Source of the DNA: Limisphaerales bacterium
GTDB taxonomy: Bacteria; Verrucomicrobiota; Verrucomicrobiia; Limisphaerales; JAKEEH01
Reading direction: 5' to 3'
Assembly: GCA_022616725.1 (NCBI GenBank)
Contig: JAKEEH010000331.1
Location: forward strand, 1-54,175
Length of the DNA stretch: 54,175 nucleotides
Part shown: piece after piece, positions 737 to 7,047 of the stretch
Position numbering within the stretch: the stretch's first letter is position 1
Layout of the letters: each line of letters begins with the position of its first letter
Translations under genes and position numbers: made by a program
The notes under the pieces: model-generated
Told to the model about the DNA's origin: nothing
The model's input: only the letters and a program-made list of their open reading frames with translations
The model's database searches: none

Positions 737-2863
737 ATGCCTGCGACACGAAAATGTCGTGGCTGCGGGGCTGACGTGCCGGCCAATGCTCCCTTCGGCC
801 ACTGTCCGAGCTGCCTTCTGGAATTGGGCTTCGGCCCATTGCCCGAAGGGGTGGAAGCGACGCGTCCACCCGCGGGTGGTGGTCGCGCTTTTGCGGATTA
901 TGAATTGTTTGAGCAGATTGGCCGCGGCGGCATGGGCGTCATTTACAAAGCTCGCCAGGTCACACTCAAGCGCCTCGTCGCCCTGAAAATGGTGAAGGCC
1001 GGTGAATTCGCCTCGCCAACGCTCATCCAGCGATTCCATCTCGAAGCCGAGGCTGCCGCCAACTTGCATCACCCAAACATCGTTCCCATCTATGAGACCG
1101 GCGAGCATGACGGGCAGCATTTCTTCAGCATGGAACTGATCGACGGCGCGGGCCTGGATCGCTACATCACGAGCACGGGCTTCTGCTTCAACGGGAAATC
1201 CGGAGACAAGCCGTCCCTCCGCGCGTGCCAGGAACAAATCGCGCGCATCATGGCCAAAGTCGCGCGCGCCGTGGATTACGCCCACCAGCATGGCGTATTG
1301 CACCGCGACCTCAAACCAAGCAACGTTATTCTTGACGGTCGAGGCGAGCCGCATTTGACGGACTTCGGCGTCGCAAAAGTAATCGGCCACGAAGGCAGCA
1401 GCCTCACTGCGAGCGGCGCGATCATGGGCACGCCCAGCTACATGGCGCCCGAACAAGCCGCCGGACAGAGCAAACGGATCACGATCGCCGCCGACATCTA
1501 CAGCCTCGGCGCCATTCTCTACGAAATGCTCACCGGCCATGTGCCCTTCCGCGCCGAGACGCCCGTCCAGACCTTGAAACAGGTCATTGAGGAAGAACCC
1601 AAACATCCATCGACATTCAAGGAGGGTTTGGATCGCGACCTGGCGACGATCTGCATGAAGTGCCTCGAAAAGGAGCCGCCGCGGCGTTACCCTTCTGCCG
1701 CAGCGCTGGCCGAAGACCTGGACCGTTTCCAACGCCGAGAACCTATCGCGGCGCGCCCCGCTGGGACCGCAGGAAAGGTCTGGCGCTGGGCGCGACGCAA
1801 CCCAAAGGTAGCGGCGTTGAGCGCGGCCGTTGCGGTGCTGCTGGTGGTCTCGGGCGTCGCAGTCACCATCGCGGCGATGCTTCTGAACGACAGAGTTCAC
1901 ATCCTGACCCAACAGCTTGGGGTGCATCGGCAGGTGATGTCGGGTTTGGCAGCGCTCGACACAGATCCAACGGAGCCGTACTTTGATATTTCTTCAGCGA
2001 CCAGGCGAGAGCTTACCGGAGAGCCCCGGTTCAGTGCTGGCGTCAAGCTCAAGTTCGGGACCTATAGATACGCTCATCCTACCAACATGTTAGACGGGTT
2101 TTCGCCGATATTGGCGGCCTTGGAGGAGTATCTGAGTAAACAGATCGGGCGGCGGGTTGCTATCGATATACGTGTCTTCCAGACCTATCAGAGGACACAC
2201 GAGGCCTTGGCATCCAACTACTTGCATTTCGGACGAATCGGGCCGGCTTCCTACATCAAGCTCTCCGACAAGGGCGACGCTAGCCTGCTCGCCGCTCAAT
2301 TTGGCTCAAAACCCGTGACATTGGCCATTTTCACGCTGAAAGACAGCGATATTGCGAGACGATTCCTCGAGAAAACCAATACGCCCTTGACTGAACTGCT
2401 CAGAAACCAGTCCTTCGCGTTCGGCGATACCAACTCCACGACTGGGAACTTCGTCGCCAAGTGGTTCTTAGTGGTCTCGAACGGGATTTACGCCAGCGAC
2501 CTCGGCACAAAGAAACATCTTAAGTCGCACAACGAAGTCTGCCAGGCCGTGCGGGCTGGCGAATTTGACGTCGGTGCGGCCAATCTCAATTACGTGGTCA
2601 GATATCCGGATTTGCAAGTCCTGGCGACCTACGCCCTTCAAGAGGATGTGGGGCGTTGCTGGGTGGCGAGCAAGGCGCTGGATACGAATATGGCGAAGCA
2701 CATCCAAAGGTTCTTCCTGGAATTGAGCGATCCACGCATCTTCGAGGCCCTCACACAGCTCGATGGCGAGGTGAACCACTTTAAAACGATGAGTGACGAA
2801 TCGCTGAAGCCGCTCCGGAACATCATCCACCAGGAAGCTACGTTCGAAGCGGGCAGGAAGTAG
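737..2863 (+). CDS. Membrane Ser/Thr protein kinase with C-terminal PhnD-like phosphate/phosphonate-binding domain
   Basis: The 708-residue protein has four parts. A zinc ribbon (C7, C10, C23, C26) is followed by a Hanks-type kinase domain at about 55-335. The kinase has the glycine loop IGRGGMGVIY, VALK Lys84, HRDLKPSN with Asp191, DFG Asp209 and GTPSYMAPEQ, so it should be active. One transmembrane helix lies at about 357-383 (NPKVAALSAAVAVLLVVSGV). Residues about 437-700 resemble PhnD-type periplasmic phosphonate or phosphate-binding proteins (KFGTYRYAHP, FGRIGPASYIKL, FAFGDTNSTTGNF, FDVGAANLNYV). The topology implies a cytoplasmic kinase reading an external anion through a solute-binding sensor. 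Genes on either side are an ECF sigma factor and an OprO/OprP porin, which fits phosphorus sensing; the ligand itself is inferred. Confidence 0.9.
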   Translation: MPATRKCRGCGADVPANAPFGHCPSCLLELGFGPLPEGVEATRPPAGGGRAFADYELFEQIGRGGMGVIYKARQVTLKRLVALKMVKAGEFASPTLIQRFHLEAEAAANLHHPNIVPIYETGEHDGQHFFSMELIDGAGLDRYITSTGFCFNGKSGDKPSLRACQEQIARIMAKVARAVDYAHQHGVLHRDLKPSNVILDGRGEPHLTDFGVAKVIGHEGSSLTASGAIMGTPSYMAPEQAAGQSKRITIAADIYSLGAILYEMLTGHVPFRAETPVQTLKQVIEEEPKHPSTFKEGLDRDLATICMKCLEKEPPRRYPSAAALAEDLDRFQRREPIAARPAGTAGKVWRWARRNPKVAALSAAVAVLLVVSGVAVTIAAMLLNDRVHILTQQLGVHRQVMSGLAALDTDPTEPYFDISSATRRELTGEPRFSAGVKLKFGTYRYAHPTNMLDGFSPILAALEEYLSKQIGRRVAIDIRVFQTYQRTHEALASNYLHFGRIGPASYIKLSDKGDASLLAAQFGSKPVTLAIFTLKDSDIARRFLEKTNTPLTELLRNQSFAFGDTNSTTGNFVAKWFLVVSNGIYASDLGTKKHLKSHNEVCQAVRAGEFDVGAANLNYVVRYPDLQVLATYALQEDVGRCWVASKALDTNMAKHIQRFFLELSDPRIFEALTQLDGEVNHFKTMSDESLKPLRNIIHQEATFEAGRK

Positions 2864-2902
2864 GCTGTTTATGTCGAACATAGCTCAAACGAACTGCGCC
2901 GG

Positions 2903-4363
2903 ATGACAATACTGCTTATGAAACCGCCTTCTCTGCTCACCGGCCTGATCGTGATTCAAGTCGCTTTCGTTACGCCGGACGCCGCTGACGCTGACGAACG
3001 AGACGACCGCATTCGCGCCCTGGAAAAGCGGGTCGAACAGCTCGAGAAACTACTGCTAGAGCGGGAAGCCAAAATTGCTCCGCCCGGCGAGGCGCCCAAA
3101 CCGGCTGAAGCCCCAAAGCCCGGTCCCAGCCTCTCCATTGGCGCCTCCGGTTTCAGTATGCGCTCGGCGGATACGAACTTTGCGCTTCGCCTCCGAGGTC
3201 TGTTGGACGTGGACTCGCACTGGTACGTTGATGACGGCGGCATCAGTGACAATGACACCTTTCTGGTGCGGCGGGCGCGGCCCATCCTCGAAGGCACGAT
3301 CTTTCGCGACTTCGACTTCCGCTTTACGCCGGAATTCGGCGGCTCCTCGACCACGATTCGGGATGCCTGGCTGAACTACCGTTACGACGATCCGTTGCAA
3401 TTGCGCATCGGGAAAATGAAGTCACCGGCCGGCCTGGAGCGCTGGCAGTCTGTCGCCAATACGCTGATGGTCGAACGCAGCCTGGTGTCCGGCCTGTGGC
3501 CTGTCCGCGACCTCGGCCTCATGCTGCACGGCGAACTCTGGCCGGGCGACGAATCCGTCACAAAAGCTCTTGGCGCGAGTGGCCTGGCAAATTATGAGCT
3601 CGGCGTGTTCAACGGAGCGGCGGACGGTCGCGCAGCCGGCAACGCCGATTTCGACGACGATAAGACCGTAGCGGGCCGGTTATTCTTTCATCCGTTTCTC
3701 AAAAGTGGGTTGAAGCCGCTTGGCCGGCTTGGTGTCGGAGTCAGCGCCAGCTACGGCAATGCAGAAGGCAGCGCCGGCCTCCCGGACGACCGCGGCTACG
3801 AGACGGAGGCGCGACAGGGCTTCTTCAGCTATCTCAGTGGCGACGGCGCCACTCCTGCGACCGTCAACGTCATCGCCGACGGCTCTCACTGGCGAGTGGG
3901 GCCGCAAGGCTACTGGTATTGCGGACGGTTCGGCTTGCTCGGCGAATACGCAATTTCCTCCCAACGCCTGCAACGCCAGGCTGGGCCAGTCACTTTGAGC
4001 CGCGCAGAGCACGATGCCTGGTCGGTCACCGCCTCCTGGCTATTGACGGGTGAGGAGGCATCATTCCGCAGCACCACGCCGCAAGAGAACTTTGATCCGC
4101 ACGCCGGCGGCTGGGGGGCGTGGCAAGTGGTCGCTCGTTACTCGTATTTGGACATTGACGACGATGTTTTTCCGAGCCTCGCCGATCCAGCGGAATCGGC
4201 CACGCGTGCGGCGGGTTGGGCCATCGGCTTGAACTGGTATTTGAACCGCAATGTCCGCGTCTCACTTGACTTCAATCACACGGACTTCGAAGGAGGCGAG
4301 AGCGGCAGCGTCACAGCCCAGGACGAGGACGCCTTCCTCACTCGCGTCCAGCTCGCCTTCTAA
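2903..4363 (+). CDS. Phosphate-selective porin O/P family protein
   Basis: This outer-membrane beta-barrel of 486 residues has a hydrophobic N-terminal signal, a short coiled coil (DDRIRALEKRVEQLEKLLLE) and a proline-rich linker before the barrel. That order is typical of the OprO/OprP porins of Gram-negatives. Barrel features include FLVRRARPILEGTIFRDFDFRFTP, LRIGKMKSPAGLERWQS and a C-terminal strand ending in phenylalanine (RVQLAF), the signal for outer-membrane assembly. The family carries phosphate or polyphosphate across the outer membrane. An alternative start is ATG 2918. The 39-bp gap after the PhnD-kinase gene suggests one transcript, so the kinase may control or respond to this uptake route. 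Confidence 0.88.
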   Translation: MTILLMKPPSLLTGLIVIQVAFVTPDAADADERDDRIRALEKRVEQLEKLLLEREAKIAPPGEAPKPAEAPKPGPSLSIGASGFSMRSADTNFALRLRGLLDVDSHWYVDDGGISDNDTFLVRRARPILEGTIFRDFDFRFTPEFGGSSTTIRDAWLNYRYDDPLQLRIGKMKSPAGLERWQSVANTLMVERSLVSGLWPVRDLGLMLHGELWPGDESVTKALGASGLANYELGVFNGAADGRAAGNADFDDDKTVAGRLFFHPFLKSGLKPLGRLGVGVSASYGNAEGSAGLPDDRGYETEARQGFFSYLSGDGATPATVNVIADGSHWRVGPQGYWYCGRFGLLGEYAISSQRLQRQAGPVTLSRAEHDAWSVTASWLLTGEEASFRSTTPQENFDPHAGGWGAWQVVARYSYLDIDDDVFPSLADPAESATRAAGWAIGLNWYLNRNVRVSLDFNHTDFEGGESGSVTAQDEDAFLTRVQLAF

Positions 4364-4477
4364 AAGACTGGCGGCCAATTCTGGCACCCCAATGTTGTGG
4401 AGGACTGATGTCATAGCATGACAATCCGATTCATTCGACAACTGGCAACCCCGATGGTACAAGTCCCGAGTAACAAT

Positions 4478-4762
4478 ATGAGCGTCGAGATAGGTTCGAT
4501 CATCGTTCGCACCCCAGAGGTTCGAGATGGCAAGCCACACATTGCAGGCACGGGCATCAGCGTTCACCGCCTTGTCCGCTGGTACAAGCAGGGGTACAAT
4601 CCCGAACAGATTGCCGATGAGTATGCGCACCTGACCCTGGCCCAAGTGTACGCGGCGCTGTCCTACTACCACGCCAACCAGGCGGACATCGAGGCAGAAC
4701 TGGCTGCGGAGGACTCTGAGATCGCGCGGCTGGAACGCGAGGCGGGACCAGTTTCCCGCTGA
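4478..4762 (+). CDS. DUF433 family antitoxin (VapB-like)
   Basis: The core IIVRTPEVRDGKPHIAGTGISVHRLVRWYKQG followed by NPEQIADEYAHLTLAQVYAALSYYHAN is the DUF433 winged-helix fold, the antitoxin half of DUF433/DUF5615 modules. I chose ATG 4478 because the domain begins directly there; ATG 4418 and 4454 would add a non-conserved extension. The stop codon overlaps the ATG of the DUF5615 gene by one base (TGATG), which indicates translational coupling. It probably neutralises the neighbouring PIN-like protein and represses the pair. Confidence 0.85.
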   Translation: MSVEIGSIIVRTPEVRDGKPHIAGTGISVHRLVRWYKQGYNPEQIADEYAHLTLAQVYAALSYYHANQADIEAELAAEDSEIARLEREAGPVSR

Positions 4763-5120
4763 TGCAGGTTCGCCTGTACCTGGATGAGGACGCTTCATCG
4801 CGCTCGTTGGCGCGAGGCCTGCGGGCGCGCGGTATCGATGTCCTCACCGCCGTTGAGGCGGGCAGACTGGAAGAGGACGACCCGAATCAACTTGACTTTG
4901 CCACACAACAAGGCCGGGCCATTTACACCTACAACGTCGCCCACTTCTATCGGCTCCACACGACTTGGGTCATGGGGGCAAAAGCCGTGCGGGAATGATA
5001 CTGGTCGCGCAGAGCCGCTTCAGCGTTGGTGAGCAACTGCGCCGCGTTCTAAAGCTCATCGCCAATAGGTCGGCGGAGGCGATGCGAAACCATATTGAGT
5101 TCCTCAGCGCCTGGAATTGA
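4762..5120 (+). pseudogene. DUF5615 PIN-like toxin, split by a -1 frameshift
   Basis: Residues 1-73 (MQVRLYLDEDASSRSLARGL, then TYNVAHFYRLHTTW) are a DUF5615 PIN-like ribonuclease with the early acidic residues of that fold. The starting frame stops at 4996-4998. The rest of the family domain continues in the -1 frame from about 4983 as RAGMILVAQSRFSVGEQLRR to a stop at 5118-5120. The total length of 359 bp is exactly one base short of 120 codons, and the break falls in the A run at 4980-4983. Either one A was lost (mutation or sequencing error) or the ribosome slips back on AAAA. As written, the toxin lacks its C-terminal third and may be inactive. It is coupled to the DUF433 antitoxin. Confidence 0.8.
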
Positions 5121-5282
5121 GCAGTTGAGCCACCACCGCGCTTGAATTACTGCATCGGACAGGCGGCCGGCTCTGACTTCCGATCACCTTAAGTCAGATT
5201 CTCTGTTACCCTTCCGGAGGTTTCTTTCAGTAAGGAGCAGGACCCCAATACGGGTTGAACAACAACAAAACTCCAACAACCT

Positions 5283-6092
5283 ATGAGAAAAAAAACGCAA
5301 ACCATAATTTCAGCTAAAACGGCCTGGTGGATGATCTCGGCGATCGTCGGCCTTTGCGCACCGAGCGCGCGAGCTGATGCGCCACAGTCCGAGTCACCCA
5401 ACACGACGCTCGTTTACTTTGTGCGCCACGCCGAGGACGTTCCAGAGTTGGTGGGATCCGATCCCAGCTTCACGGTCACATTCAACAACTGCAACCTGGA
5501 TGGGTCTTGTTGCGAAGAGGCTCTCAATTCCCTTGGCAAAGTGCGCGCGACGGTCCTGGCTGACTGGTTCGAGGAGAAGGGGCTTACATCAACGCTGACC
5601 CATGTCATCGCCAGCCACAAGCTCCGCACCCGCCAGACGGTTGCCGGGATCGCCCAAAGAGCAGGCTTGGGTGGCGATGTCGATCAGGCGCCTGGCGACG
5701 GCGTCATTAACGTCCCGCCAATATCCGGGGAGTGCGATCCGGGCTGGACATCGTCCTCCTCAGTCACGCAGCCGCAAATCAATTTTATCGCGACCCTCCC
5801 TGTGGGGAGTCGGGCTGTCGTTTGCTCCCACAGCCCGGTGTTATACCCGCTGATGCAAGCCTTTGGCATAGATACAAGCGATTCCGTTAAGTTCCCGAAG
5901 GATTCCAGAGGGCGCGTCAGTGGATTTAGCAATCTGTGGATCGTCGAACTGCAACCGACGAGATTTGCTGGCGCGCTTGCGTACCAGGGTCGTCTTCTCG
6001 AGCATGTCCGGCTCGATTTCCAGTTGGAGAAGTCTTCCATTGACCGAGATTACGGGAATGCGCCAGGCCGAGGATCGCGCGACGACGACTAA
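5283..6092 (+). CDS. Exported histidine phosphatase superfamily protein
   Basis: A basic N-terminus and hydrophobic segment (about 14-30, ending SARADA) form a signal peptide. The catalytic motif is VRHAE (R48, H49, E51). A second conserved arginine lies in ASHKLRTRQT and the second catalytic histidine is in CSHSPVL (H183). This is the phosphoglycerate-mutase/SixA fold that hydrolyses phosphomonoesters through a phosphohistidine intermediate; here it probably acts in the periplasm. A cysteine-containing insert (NNCNLDGSCCEEA) separates the first motif from the rest. The gene stands alone, and no Shine-Dalgarno sequence is seen in the A/C-rich leader. The substrate is unknown. Confidence 0.85.
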   Translation: MRKKTQTIISAKTAWWMISAIVGLCAPSARADAPQSESPNTTLVYFVRHAEDVPELVGSDPSFTVTFNNCNLDGSCCEEALNSLGKVRATVLADWFEEKGLTSTLTHVIASHKLRTRQTVAGIAQRAGLGGDVDQAPGDGVINVPPISGECDPGWTSSSSVTQPQINFIATLPVGSRAVVCSHSPVLYPLMQAFGIDTSDSVKFPKDSRGRVSGFSNLWIVELQPTRFAGALAYQGRLLEHVRLDFQLEKSSIDRDYGNAPGRGSRDDD

Positions 6093-6219: not shown

Positions 6220-6567
6220 TCACTCTGCGCCGGGCACTGCCCCTTTGTAGGCGATTACCTGTATGTTCTCCAATGTGATCAGTCCGCCCTGCATCATGTC
6301 ATCCAGCACAGGCAGGAAGGAGTCGATCTTTTCCTTGCTATCAACGATTTCGATCACGAGCGGTAAATCCAGGGAAAGGCGAAGGATCTTTGCCGTGTGC
6401 AGGCGGCTGGACTTTCCGAAACCCATCGGTCCCCTGAGAACCGTTGCGCCCGCGAGATGCATCTCACGCGCCTTTAGCACGATCGCTTCGTAGAGAGGTT
6501 GGTGCTTGTACCGGTCACTTTCGCCTAAAAAAATCCGTAGCAGCACCGCGTTTTGAGGTATTTGCAT
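6220..6567 (-). CDS. DUF190 family (PII-like) protein
   Basis: The 115-residue protein matches DUF190: LRIFLGESDRYKHQPLYEAI, GATVLRGPMGFG, and LPLVIEIVDSKEKIDSFLPVL. The family has a ferredoxin-like fold related to PII proteins and is commonly encoded beside CrcB fluoride channels. Here it starts one base after the crcB stop (TGA-C-ATG), so the two are certainly cotranscribed. A regulatory or accessory role in fluoride resistance is inferred from context. Confidence 0.88.
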   Translation of the reverse strand: MQIPQNAVLLRIFLGESDRYKHQPLYEAIVLKAREMHLAGATVLRGPMGFGKSSRLHTAKILRLSLDLPLVIEIVDSKEKIDSFLPVLDDMMQGGLITLENIQVIAYKGAVPGAE

Positions 6568-6568
6568 G

Positions 6569-6964
6569 TCAGTTTGCCTTTGGTGCTGTAAAAGTTAGCG
6601 CGAGCAGATGGCCAAGCCAGACTGAGATGAGGCAAAGCGCCGAGGAAAGGACAATATTCAATCCTGCGTAGAACCACTCACGGTCGCGGATCAGTTCGAG
6701 GGTCTGCAGACTAAACGAGGAGAAGGTGGTGTAACCACCGCAGATCCCGATCATGAAAAAGGTCCGAAGCGATGGCGCAACTAACCAGCGGCCATCCGGA
6801 CCGGTTAATGTGGCAAAGAGTCCAATGGCGAAGGAGCCGGAAACGTTAACCACGAGCGTGCCCCACGGAAACGCCTGGCCGATGCGATCGGCGACGAGAC
6901 CAGAAAGCCAGAATCGCGCCACGCTGCCCACTGCGCCGCCAATTGCAACCCAGAGATAGCTCAT
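6569..6964 (-). CDS. crcB: Fluoride efflux channel CrcB/Fluc
   Basis: The small inner-membrane protein (131 residues) has four hydrophobic helices. Family motifs present are GGAVGSVARF (9-18), GTLVVNVSGSF (35-45) with the pore-lining Asn, and GICGGYTTFSSF (73-84), which carries the Na+ site and the phenylalanine box. CrcB forms antiparallel dimers that export F-. ATG 6964 was chosen because the family begins at the first helix; an in-frame extension to 7000 adds only basic residues. I looked for the fluoride riboswitch upstream and did not find it; phased T/A tracts lie there instead. Confidence 0.93.
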   Translation of the reverse strand: MSYLWVAIGGAVGSVARFWLSGLVADRIGQAFPWGTLVVNVSGSFAIGLFATLTGPDGRWLVAPSLRTFFMIGICGGYTTFSSFSLQTLELIRDREWFYAGLNIVLSSALCLISVWLGHLLALTFTAPKAN

Positions 6965-7047
6965 TATAAGCCGGTGCGGACGCGCTAATCTTCTGAGCAA
7001 AAGCCCTTCTCAAAGCAAGACAAAGGCAAAAATCCGGGATTTCTGTG

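Follow-up and report, generated by a model that had tools for sequence, protein, structure and literature searches.

A receptor Ser/Thr kinase with a PhnD-type sensor domain and its ECF sigma partner: a candidate oxyanion signalling module in Limisphaerales

Planctomycetota and Verrucomicrobiota encode many Hanks-type Ser/Thr kinases whose extracytoplasmic sensors are unknown and, to our knowledge, the inputs and outputs of the extracytoplasmic function (ECF) sigma factors that partner Hanks kinases in these phyla are mostly unknown. A kinase of this kind, fused to a PhnD-type domain, is encoded near the start of a 54,175 nt stretch of DNA (the window) from a Limisphaerales bacterium (GCA_022616725.1). 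The window spans the whole of contig C481 (JAKEEH010000331.1) in a 6.07 Mb genome of 583 contigs, 86% complete. Three genes follow one another on its + strand: the remainder of an ECF sigma factor gene (3-572), the kinase gene (737-2863, 708 aa) and an outer-membrane porin gene (2903-4363, 486 aa). The kinase is probably a one-protein receptor that senses a tetrahedral oxyanion and acts, by way of its own ECF sigma factor, on the kinase-porin genes and on a nearby phosphatase-type gene.

The kinase protein opens with a zinc-ribbon-like CxxC...CxxC motif common to its paralogs (aa 7-26, 755-814), followed by a Hanks kinase domain (aa 55-324, 899-1708; PF00069, E 1.7e-50) in which the catalytic motifs are all kept (GRGGMG 62, VALK 81-84, HRDLKPSN 189, DFG 209, APE 237). 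A single strongly hydrophobic helix with a basic cytoplasmic flank crosses the membrane at about aa 358-383 (1808-1885; hydropathy maximum 2.74 at aa 365). Beyond it lies a type-II solute-binding domain of the PhnD type (aa 436-707, 2042-2857, limits by family profile; PF12974, E 1.5e-30 over aa 460-686). The sequence-only reading had described an intact Hanks kinase joined through one membrane helix to a PhnD-type domain, and Pfam, motifs and hydropathy agree. The domain scores 106.8 bits against PF12974, for which the curated cut-off is 27. A profile of 27 family PhnD domains matches phosphite/phosphonate-binding proteins of solved structure with E values from 9e-40 (PtxB, 5o2j) to 1e-31; ArrX follows at about 4e-23, and sulfonate binders are far weaker at 1e-8. 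As a single-sequence query of the PDB, the window domain finds ArrX as its best match, and an AlphaFold model made from the single sequence with no alignment reaches a pLDDT of 34.7, too low for use; the PhnD fold is predicted from profile homology. The window genome holds three PF12974 domains only, all in kinase fusions and none in a free PhnD, which argues against a role as a surplus transport component. No phn permease or ATPase gene for an ATP-binding cassette (ABC) transporter occurs around the window kinase.

Strong family matches in a profile search are found in roughly 16 of 320 genomes of the order, with about 21 fusions altogether, three of them in the window genome. No clear fusion was found outside the order among 384 genomes of the class and 388 of the phylum, where the top matches are free proteins of 290-350 aa. 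A contig scan with the whole kinase protein gave kinase relatives only, and tblastn found the PhnD domain in none of them. No description of a kinase-PhnD fusion was found in the literature, most subscription papers lying outside the search. Twenty-one fusion loci were read in detail, with gene calls in relatives, mostly draft genomes, taken from a simple codon-score script, and a tree was built of 20 fusions. The window kinase groups with that of locus L140 (genome G201) with support 100/99, inside a clade of seven; a second clade of thirteen (clade II) stands apart. Three PhnD matches of about 700 aa (L074, L079 and L084) are not kinase fusions and were set aside. They are PhnD-type domains joined to a PQQ-type beta-propeller, 675-734 aa long and present in several genomes of the order. 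At L072, a second, free PhnD protein is encoded directly after the kinase-PhnD gene (L072:6822-7925).

The sigma gene at 3-572 is a 3' part that has lost its N-terminus (TIGR02937, E 3.6e-5, below the family cut-off) and, as the window is a whole contig, it is truncated at the contig end. Full-length orthologous genes lie upstream of the kinase in relatives, and the window sigma is 42-46% identical (tblastn) to those upstream of other kinase-PhnD genes, e.g. at L033, L034 and L071. An ECF sigma gene is present in 19 of the 21 fusion loci, and in 17 of these it lies immediately before the kinase. Among the loci other than the window, 17 extend past the kinase gene, and none of these has a porin gene there. 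The conserved partner of the kinase is the ECF sigma gene, not the porin. The coupling of receptor kinase to ECF sigma factor proposed from the sequence alone is borne out by this pairing and by a shared promoter-like motif; conservation of the kinase-porin gene order, which the same reading had named as a check, is not supported.

Sites resembling TGTAACC-N15-TTCCTGTTGTA are common to the sigma-kinase spacers. As the pattern TGTWAC-N16-KGTWGTA, the motif matches exactly at 12 places across 16 genomes, about 92 Mb in all, and ten of these lie within kinase-PhnD modules (eight in sigma-kinase spacers, two before a downstream exported gene); a reversed-pattern control gives six scattered matches. 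The window genome has two exact matches only, one in the sigma-kinase spacer of a paralog (C168) and one in that of the window (TGTTAC-N16-TGTAGTA, 680-708, + strand). The latter is the second-best + strand site of the window by a matrix that excluded the window, and in the ortholog L140 the motif holds the same spacer position. At 11 bits or more the matrix gives 26 sites over 611 kb of module loci, both strands counted, and a single one over 438 kb of control loci; sites outside the training set precede large exported genes of L126, L127, L128 and L071. The motif is the putative target of the paired sigma factor. The top + strand site of the window by the matrix built without it is a second promoter-like site, TGTTAC-N16-TTCAGTA (5204-5232, + strand; 17.3 bits, outside the training set), 79 nt upstream of a phosphatase-type gene.

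That gene (5283-6092, + strand) encodes an exported protein of 269 aa assigned to the histidine phosphatase superfamily and is a candidate member of the regulon. Its catalytic residues are R-H at 48-49, a second R in LRTRQT (114-119) and a second H in SHS (182-184); they are conserved in three homologs, with RH then Cys in G201. The gene occurs in 3 of 36 genomes, i.e. the window genome (G000), G201 (73%) and G038 (45%), all of which carry the kinase clade of the window (hypergeometric p about 0.001 for this confinement). In G038 the phosphatase gene stands beside the kinase-PhnD gene (L071:7265-8059) with its own promoter-like site, and in G201 it lies on another contig, with a 16.0-bit site at the matching place and the same TTCAGTAAGGA ending. 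The second site and the distribution of the phosphatase are the best evidence for a regulon.

A mechanism can be proposed that joins these parts. In the periplasm, the PhnD-type domain would bind a small oxyanion of tetrahedral shape, be it phosphate, phosphonate/phosphite or an analogue containing sulfur, and close around it. Closure would alter the state of the Hanks kinase in the cytoplasm, and the kinase would in turn control the ECF sigma factor encoded beside it, probably by phosphorylation. The sigma factor would transcribe from TGTWAC-N16-KGTWGTA promoters, reaching the kinase-porin operon via 680-708 and the exported phosphatase-type gene via 5204-5232. The products would release the anion in the extracellular space and give it passage across the outer membrane. 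The domain anatomy, the linkage of sigma and kinase, the motif with its placement and the restriction of the phosphatase to the kinase clade of the window are read from the DNA itself, and from them we infer the ligand class, the direction of the switch, the phosphorylation of the sigma factor, the activity of the promoters and the cargo of the porin. The whole chain is testable, since the sequence provides a sensor whose ligand class can be recognised, a sigma factor, a candidate motif and two candidate targets.

Several observations weigh against this mechanism, some of them in the regulatory part and others in the porin and the binding pocket. With one mismatch allowed, the motif has 11 matches in the window genome vs 42 for the control, i.e. 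no enrichment, so that isolated, remote weak sites are not trustworthy singly. The phosphatase assignment is weak in Pfam (PF00300, E 0.0066) with no meaningful PDB match, and the genomes that carry the gene are few (3). Region 2.2 of the window sigma reads DGQDLTQQ and, as it keeps acidic residues, the switch published for sigma factors of group ECF43 need not apply.

The porin bears on the nature of the anion. The sequence-only reading had placed a phosphate-selective porin next to the kinase, and the gene is indeed a PF07396 porin (E 3.2e-39) on the same strand, 39 nt after the kinase; "phosphate-selective" is a Pfam family name and not a demonstrated specificity. Its only PDB matches are OprP/OprO, to which the C-terminal part of the barrel aligns at a similarity too low to map the phosphate-binding lysines. 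Its orthologs, 45-51% identical to it (two other porins of the window genome reach about 26-28%), count among the points against, as they sit with Rrf2, a sulfate-binding protein (Sbp), CysT, CysW and CysA. Such operons are found in G068, G069, G070, G078, G199 and G052, some clipped by contig ends and with a partial porin in G052, and the ortholog lies beside Sbp in G013 and G038. The window genome has its own sulfate operon on C419 (L202:2932-6838), comprising Rrf2, CysT, CysW and CysA; it lacks a porin, its Sbp is reduced to a fragment that contains a stop, and an intact copy of Sbp is found by itself on C258 (L201:7455-8519). Because the orthologs are in sulfate operons and the C419 operon is porin-less, the window porin is of the sulfate-operon type, now placed behind the kinase. 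The porin was therefore rejected as proof of phosphate, and its relatives pull the ligand toward sulfur. The corresponding explanation, in which sulfate, thiosulfate or an organosulfonate is what the domain senses and a sulfate-type porin has come under the module, draws on the origin of the porin and on the state of the C419 operon. It is nonetheless unlikely given a phosphatase-type regulon member, a PhnD profile that favours phosphite/phosphonate binders over sulfonate binders and the absence of any sulfur gene from the other fusion loci that were annotated.

Whether the porin follows the kinase elsewhere can be judged in part from the nearest relative. L140 stops at a contig end; a second contig of G201, C122, opens within a nearly identical kinase-PhnD gene, of which it has the C-terminal end, and the stop codon of that gene is immediately followed by a short, frame-broken porin fragment matching residues 230-261 of the window porin. 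The kinase-porin order was thus probably present in a second lineage and has decayed there.

The binding pocket also bears on the ligand. In Te_PtxB, the oxyanion cradle comprises Y55, Y100, S130, T131, S132 and H160, capped by Y208 (PMC5700983). Five of the six cradle positions are kept in the window domain (Y484, S567, T568, T569, which is S132 in PtxB, and H598), and the pocket so mapped suits a tetrahedral oxyanion as the likely class of ligand. On the other side of the account, the second cradle tyrosine Y100 is V527 and the capping Y208 is R640, so the full residue set of the phosphite/phosphonate binders is missed, and in L140, the nearest relative, Gln takes the place of the cradle His. 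The cradle residues are lost in most members of clade II (L034, L076, L126, L127, L129, L133, L135, L136 and L139). Free PhnDs with the same pocket, Arg at the cap included, adjoin hybrid histidine kinases (L132 and L134; G040 and G199), which points to a sensory use of such PhnDs. At L132:2267-6031 and L134:2388-6215, the partner of the free PhnD is a PAS-HisKA-HATPase-double receiver hybrid histidine kinase, and the mapped pocket positions are nearly identical to those of the window.

A phosphorus-specific version of the oxyanion mechanism, in which phosphate or phosphonate is sensed and a PhoR/PhoB-independent scavenging regulon supplies an exported phosphatase and a phosphate-permeable porin, is possible but held with some reserve. 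It draws on the agreement of the cradle with Te_PtxB and PhnD (PMC5700983), on the exported phosphatase-type protein in the putative regulon and on the membership of OprP/OprO in PF07396, and it is set back by the sulfate-operon relatives of the porin, by the Arg at the cap and by the range of PF12974 ligands, which includes arsenite/arsenate in the PhnD-like sensors AioX/ArrX (PMC5908839) and sterols in BstB (PMC10942540). Sterol binding by BstB also lends something to a further explanation, namely that the domain no longer binds a small anion and senses another ligand, a protein or an envelope partner, with porin and phosphatase as chance neighbours. Clade II, where the cradle is mostly lost and the loci encode surface proteins and pseudopilins, would fit this; in the window domain itself five cradle residues are retained, and the porin remnant in G201 and the co-occurrence of the phosphatase speak against chance, which leaves the explanation doubtful.

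Between phosphorus and sulfur, the phosphatase argues for the former and the origin of the porin for the latter. The one-protein phosphate or phosphonate sensor of the sequence-only reading stands as to receptor kinase, PhnD sensor and sigma coupling, and its phosphorus role is upheld in part by cradle and phosphatase; the porin is no proof of that role, the cap tyrosine is Arg, and many family members lack the cradle. Phosphate is a plausible but tentative ligand, and the porin is a weak argument for it. It may tentatively be suggested that the modules form a class of signalling by phosphorus (or sulfur) oxyanions not described before and seen in one order so far, running from PhnD receptor kinase to dedicated ECF sigma factor to phosphatase and anion porin independently of PhoR/PhoB, and that clade II reuses the unit with a changed pocket for a cluster of surface-protein, pseudopilin and beta-propeller genes. 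If the ligand is phosphate or phosphonate, this would be a phosphorus sensing route outside PhoR/PhoU, and if it is sulfate, a kinase route for sulfur.

Clade II holds most of the pilin clusters. A pseudopilin gene is found in 14 fusion loci (L034, L072, L073, L076, L080, L126, L127, L128, L129, L133, L135, L136, L138 and L139), mostly of clade II, and its product carries N_methyl and the signature FHCPxARFP...FSLAMNSKL. Most of these loci also encode an exported protein of ~640 aa (LTD and Ig domains in all seven that were tested). In many of them a large exported protein comes next, of the Calx-beta, LVIVD or other beta-propeller, phytase or Ig kind. Several clusters carry the promoter motif before the large exported gene, and the conserved motif offers a handle on these surface-protein clusters. 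Downstream of the kinase-PhnD/LTD/pilin cluster of L133, an exact match precedes the gene for an exported phytase-family protein (L133:9810-12309; PF02333, E 2e-76). This phytase was rejected as proof of family-wide phosphorus sensing, the PhnD domain of the L133 kinase having lost most cradle residues.

Elsewhere in the window, a DUF433 gene is directly followed by a DUF5615 gene (4418-4998) in a layout resembling a toxin-antitoxin pair, and DUF190 and CrcB-family (fluoride exporter) genes lie in tandem on the - strand (6220-7000). An Rfam scan of the window gave no family at its threshold.

Parts of the module can be compared with known systems. The AioX/ArxX/ArrX sensors (AioXSR) likewise use a PhnD-like binding protein for sensing and not for transport; they are free proteins that work with a histidine kinase, an arrangement that the free PhnDs of L132 and L134 resemble, whereas the domain is here fused to a Ser/Thr kinase. 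With PtxB and PhnD binding proteins the domain shares the fold by profile and most of the anion cradle, but it is fused to a kinase and lacks an ABC transporter partner, the cap tyrosine and the second cradle tyrosine. The porin shares PF07396 with OprP/OprO and differs in having its closest relatives in sulfate-uptake operons. The sister clusters of clade II have a related kinase-PhnD gene, an ECF sigma factor and, in several, the same promoter motif, with surface-protein and pilin genes in place of the porin and phosphatase of the window module. The closest parallel for the sigma-kinase pair is group ECF43, whose sigma factors are activated by Hanks-kinase phosphorylation (PMC13147305, PMC8999054). 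In its pairs EcfP-PknT of Vibrio parahaemolyticus and EcfK-PknS of Xanthomonas citri, as in the window, an ECF sigma gene adjoins the gene of a membrane-spanning Hanks kinase that has a sensor region outside the cytoplasm, and no gene for an anti-sigma factor is seen. Region 2.2 of ECF43 is typically an uncharged QTTA, whereas the window sigma keeps DxxD and, with DGQD in place, is not of the ECF43 type; its kinase also differs in a sensor of the PhnD type, found in one order only in these searches. Other recognised ECF groups combine DAED-like motifs with a linked kinase and may work differently (PMC8999054). The pairing of an ECF sigma factor with a Ser/Thr kinase is of a known type, and the promoter-like motif of the kinase-PhnD modules is new here.

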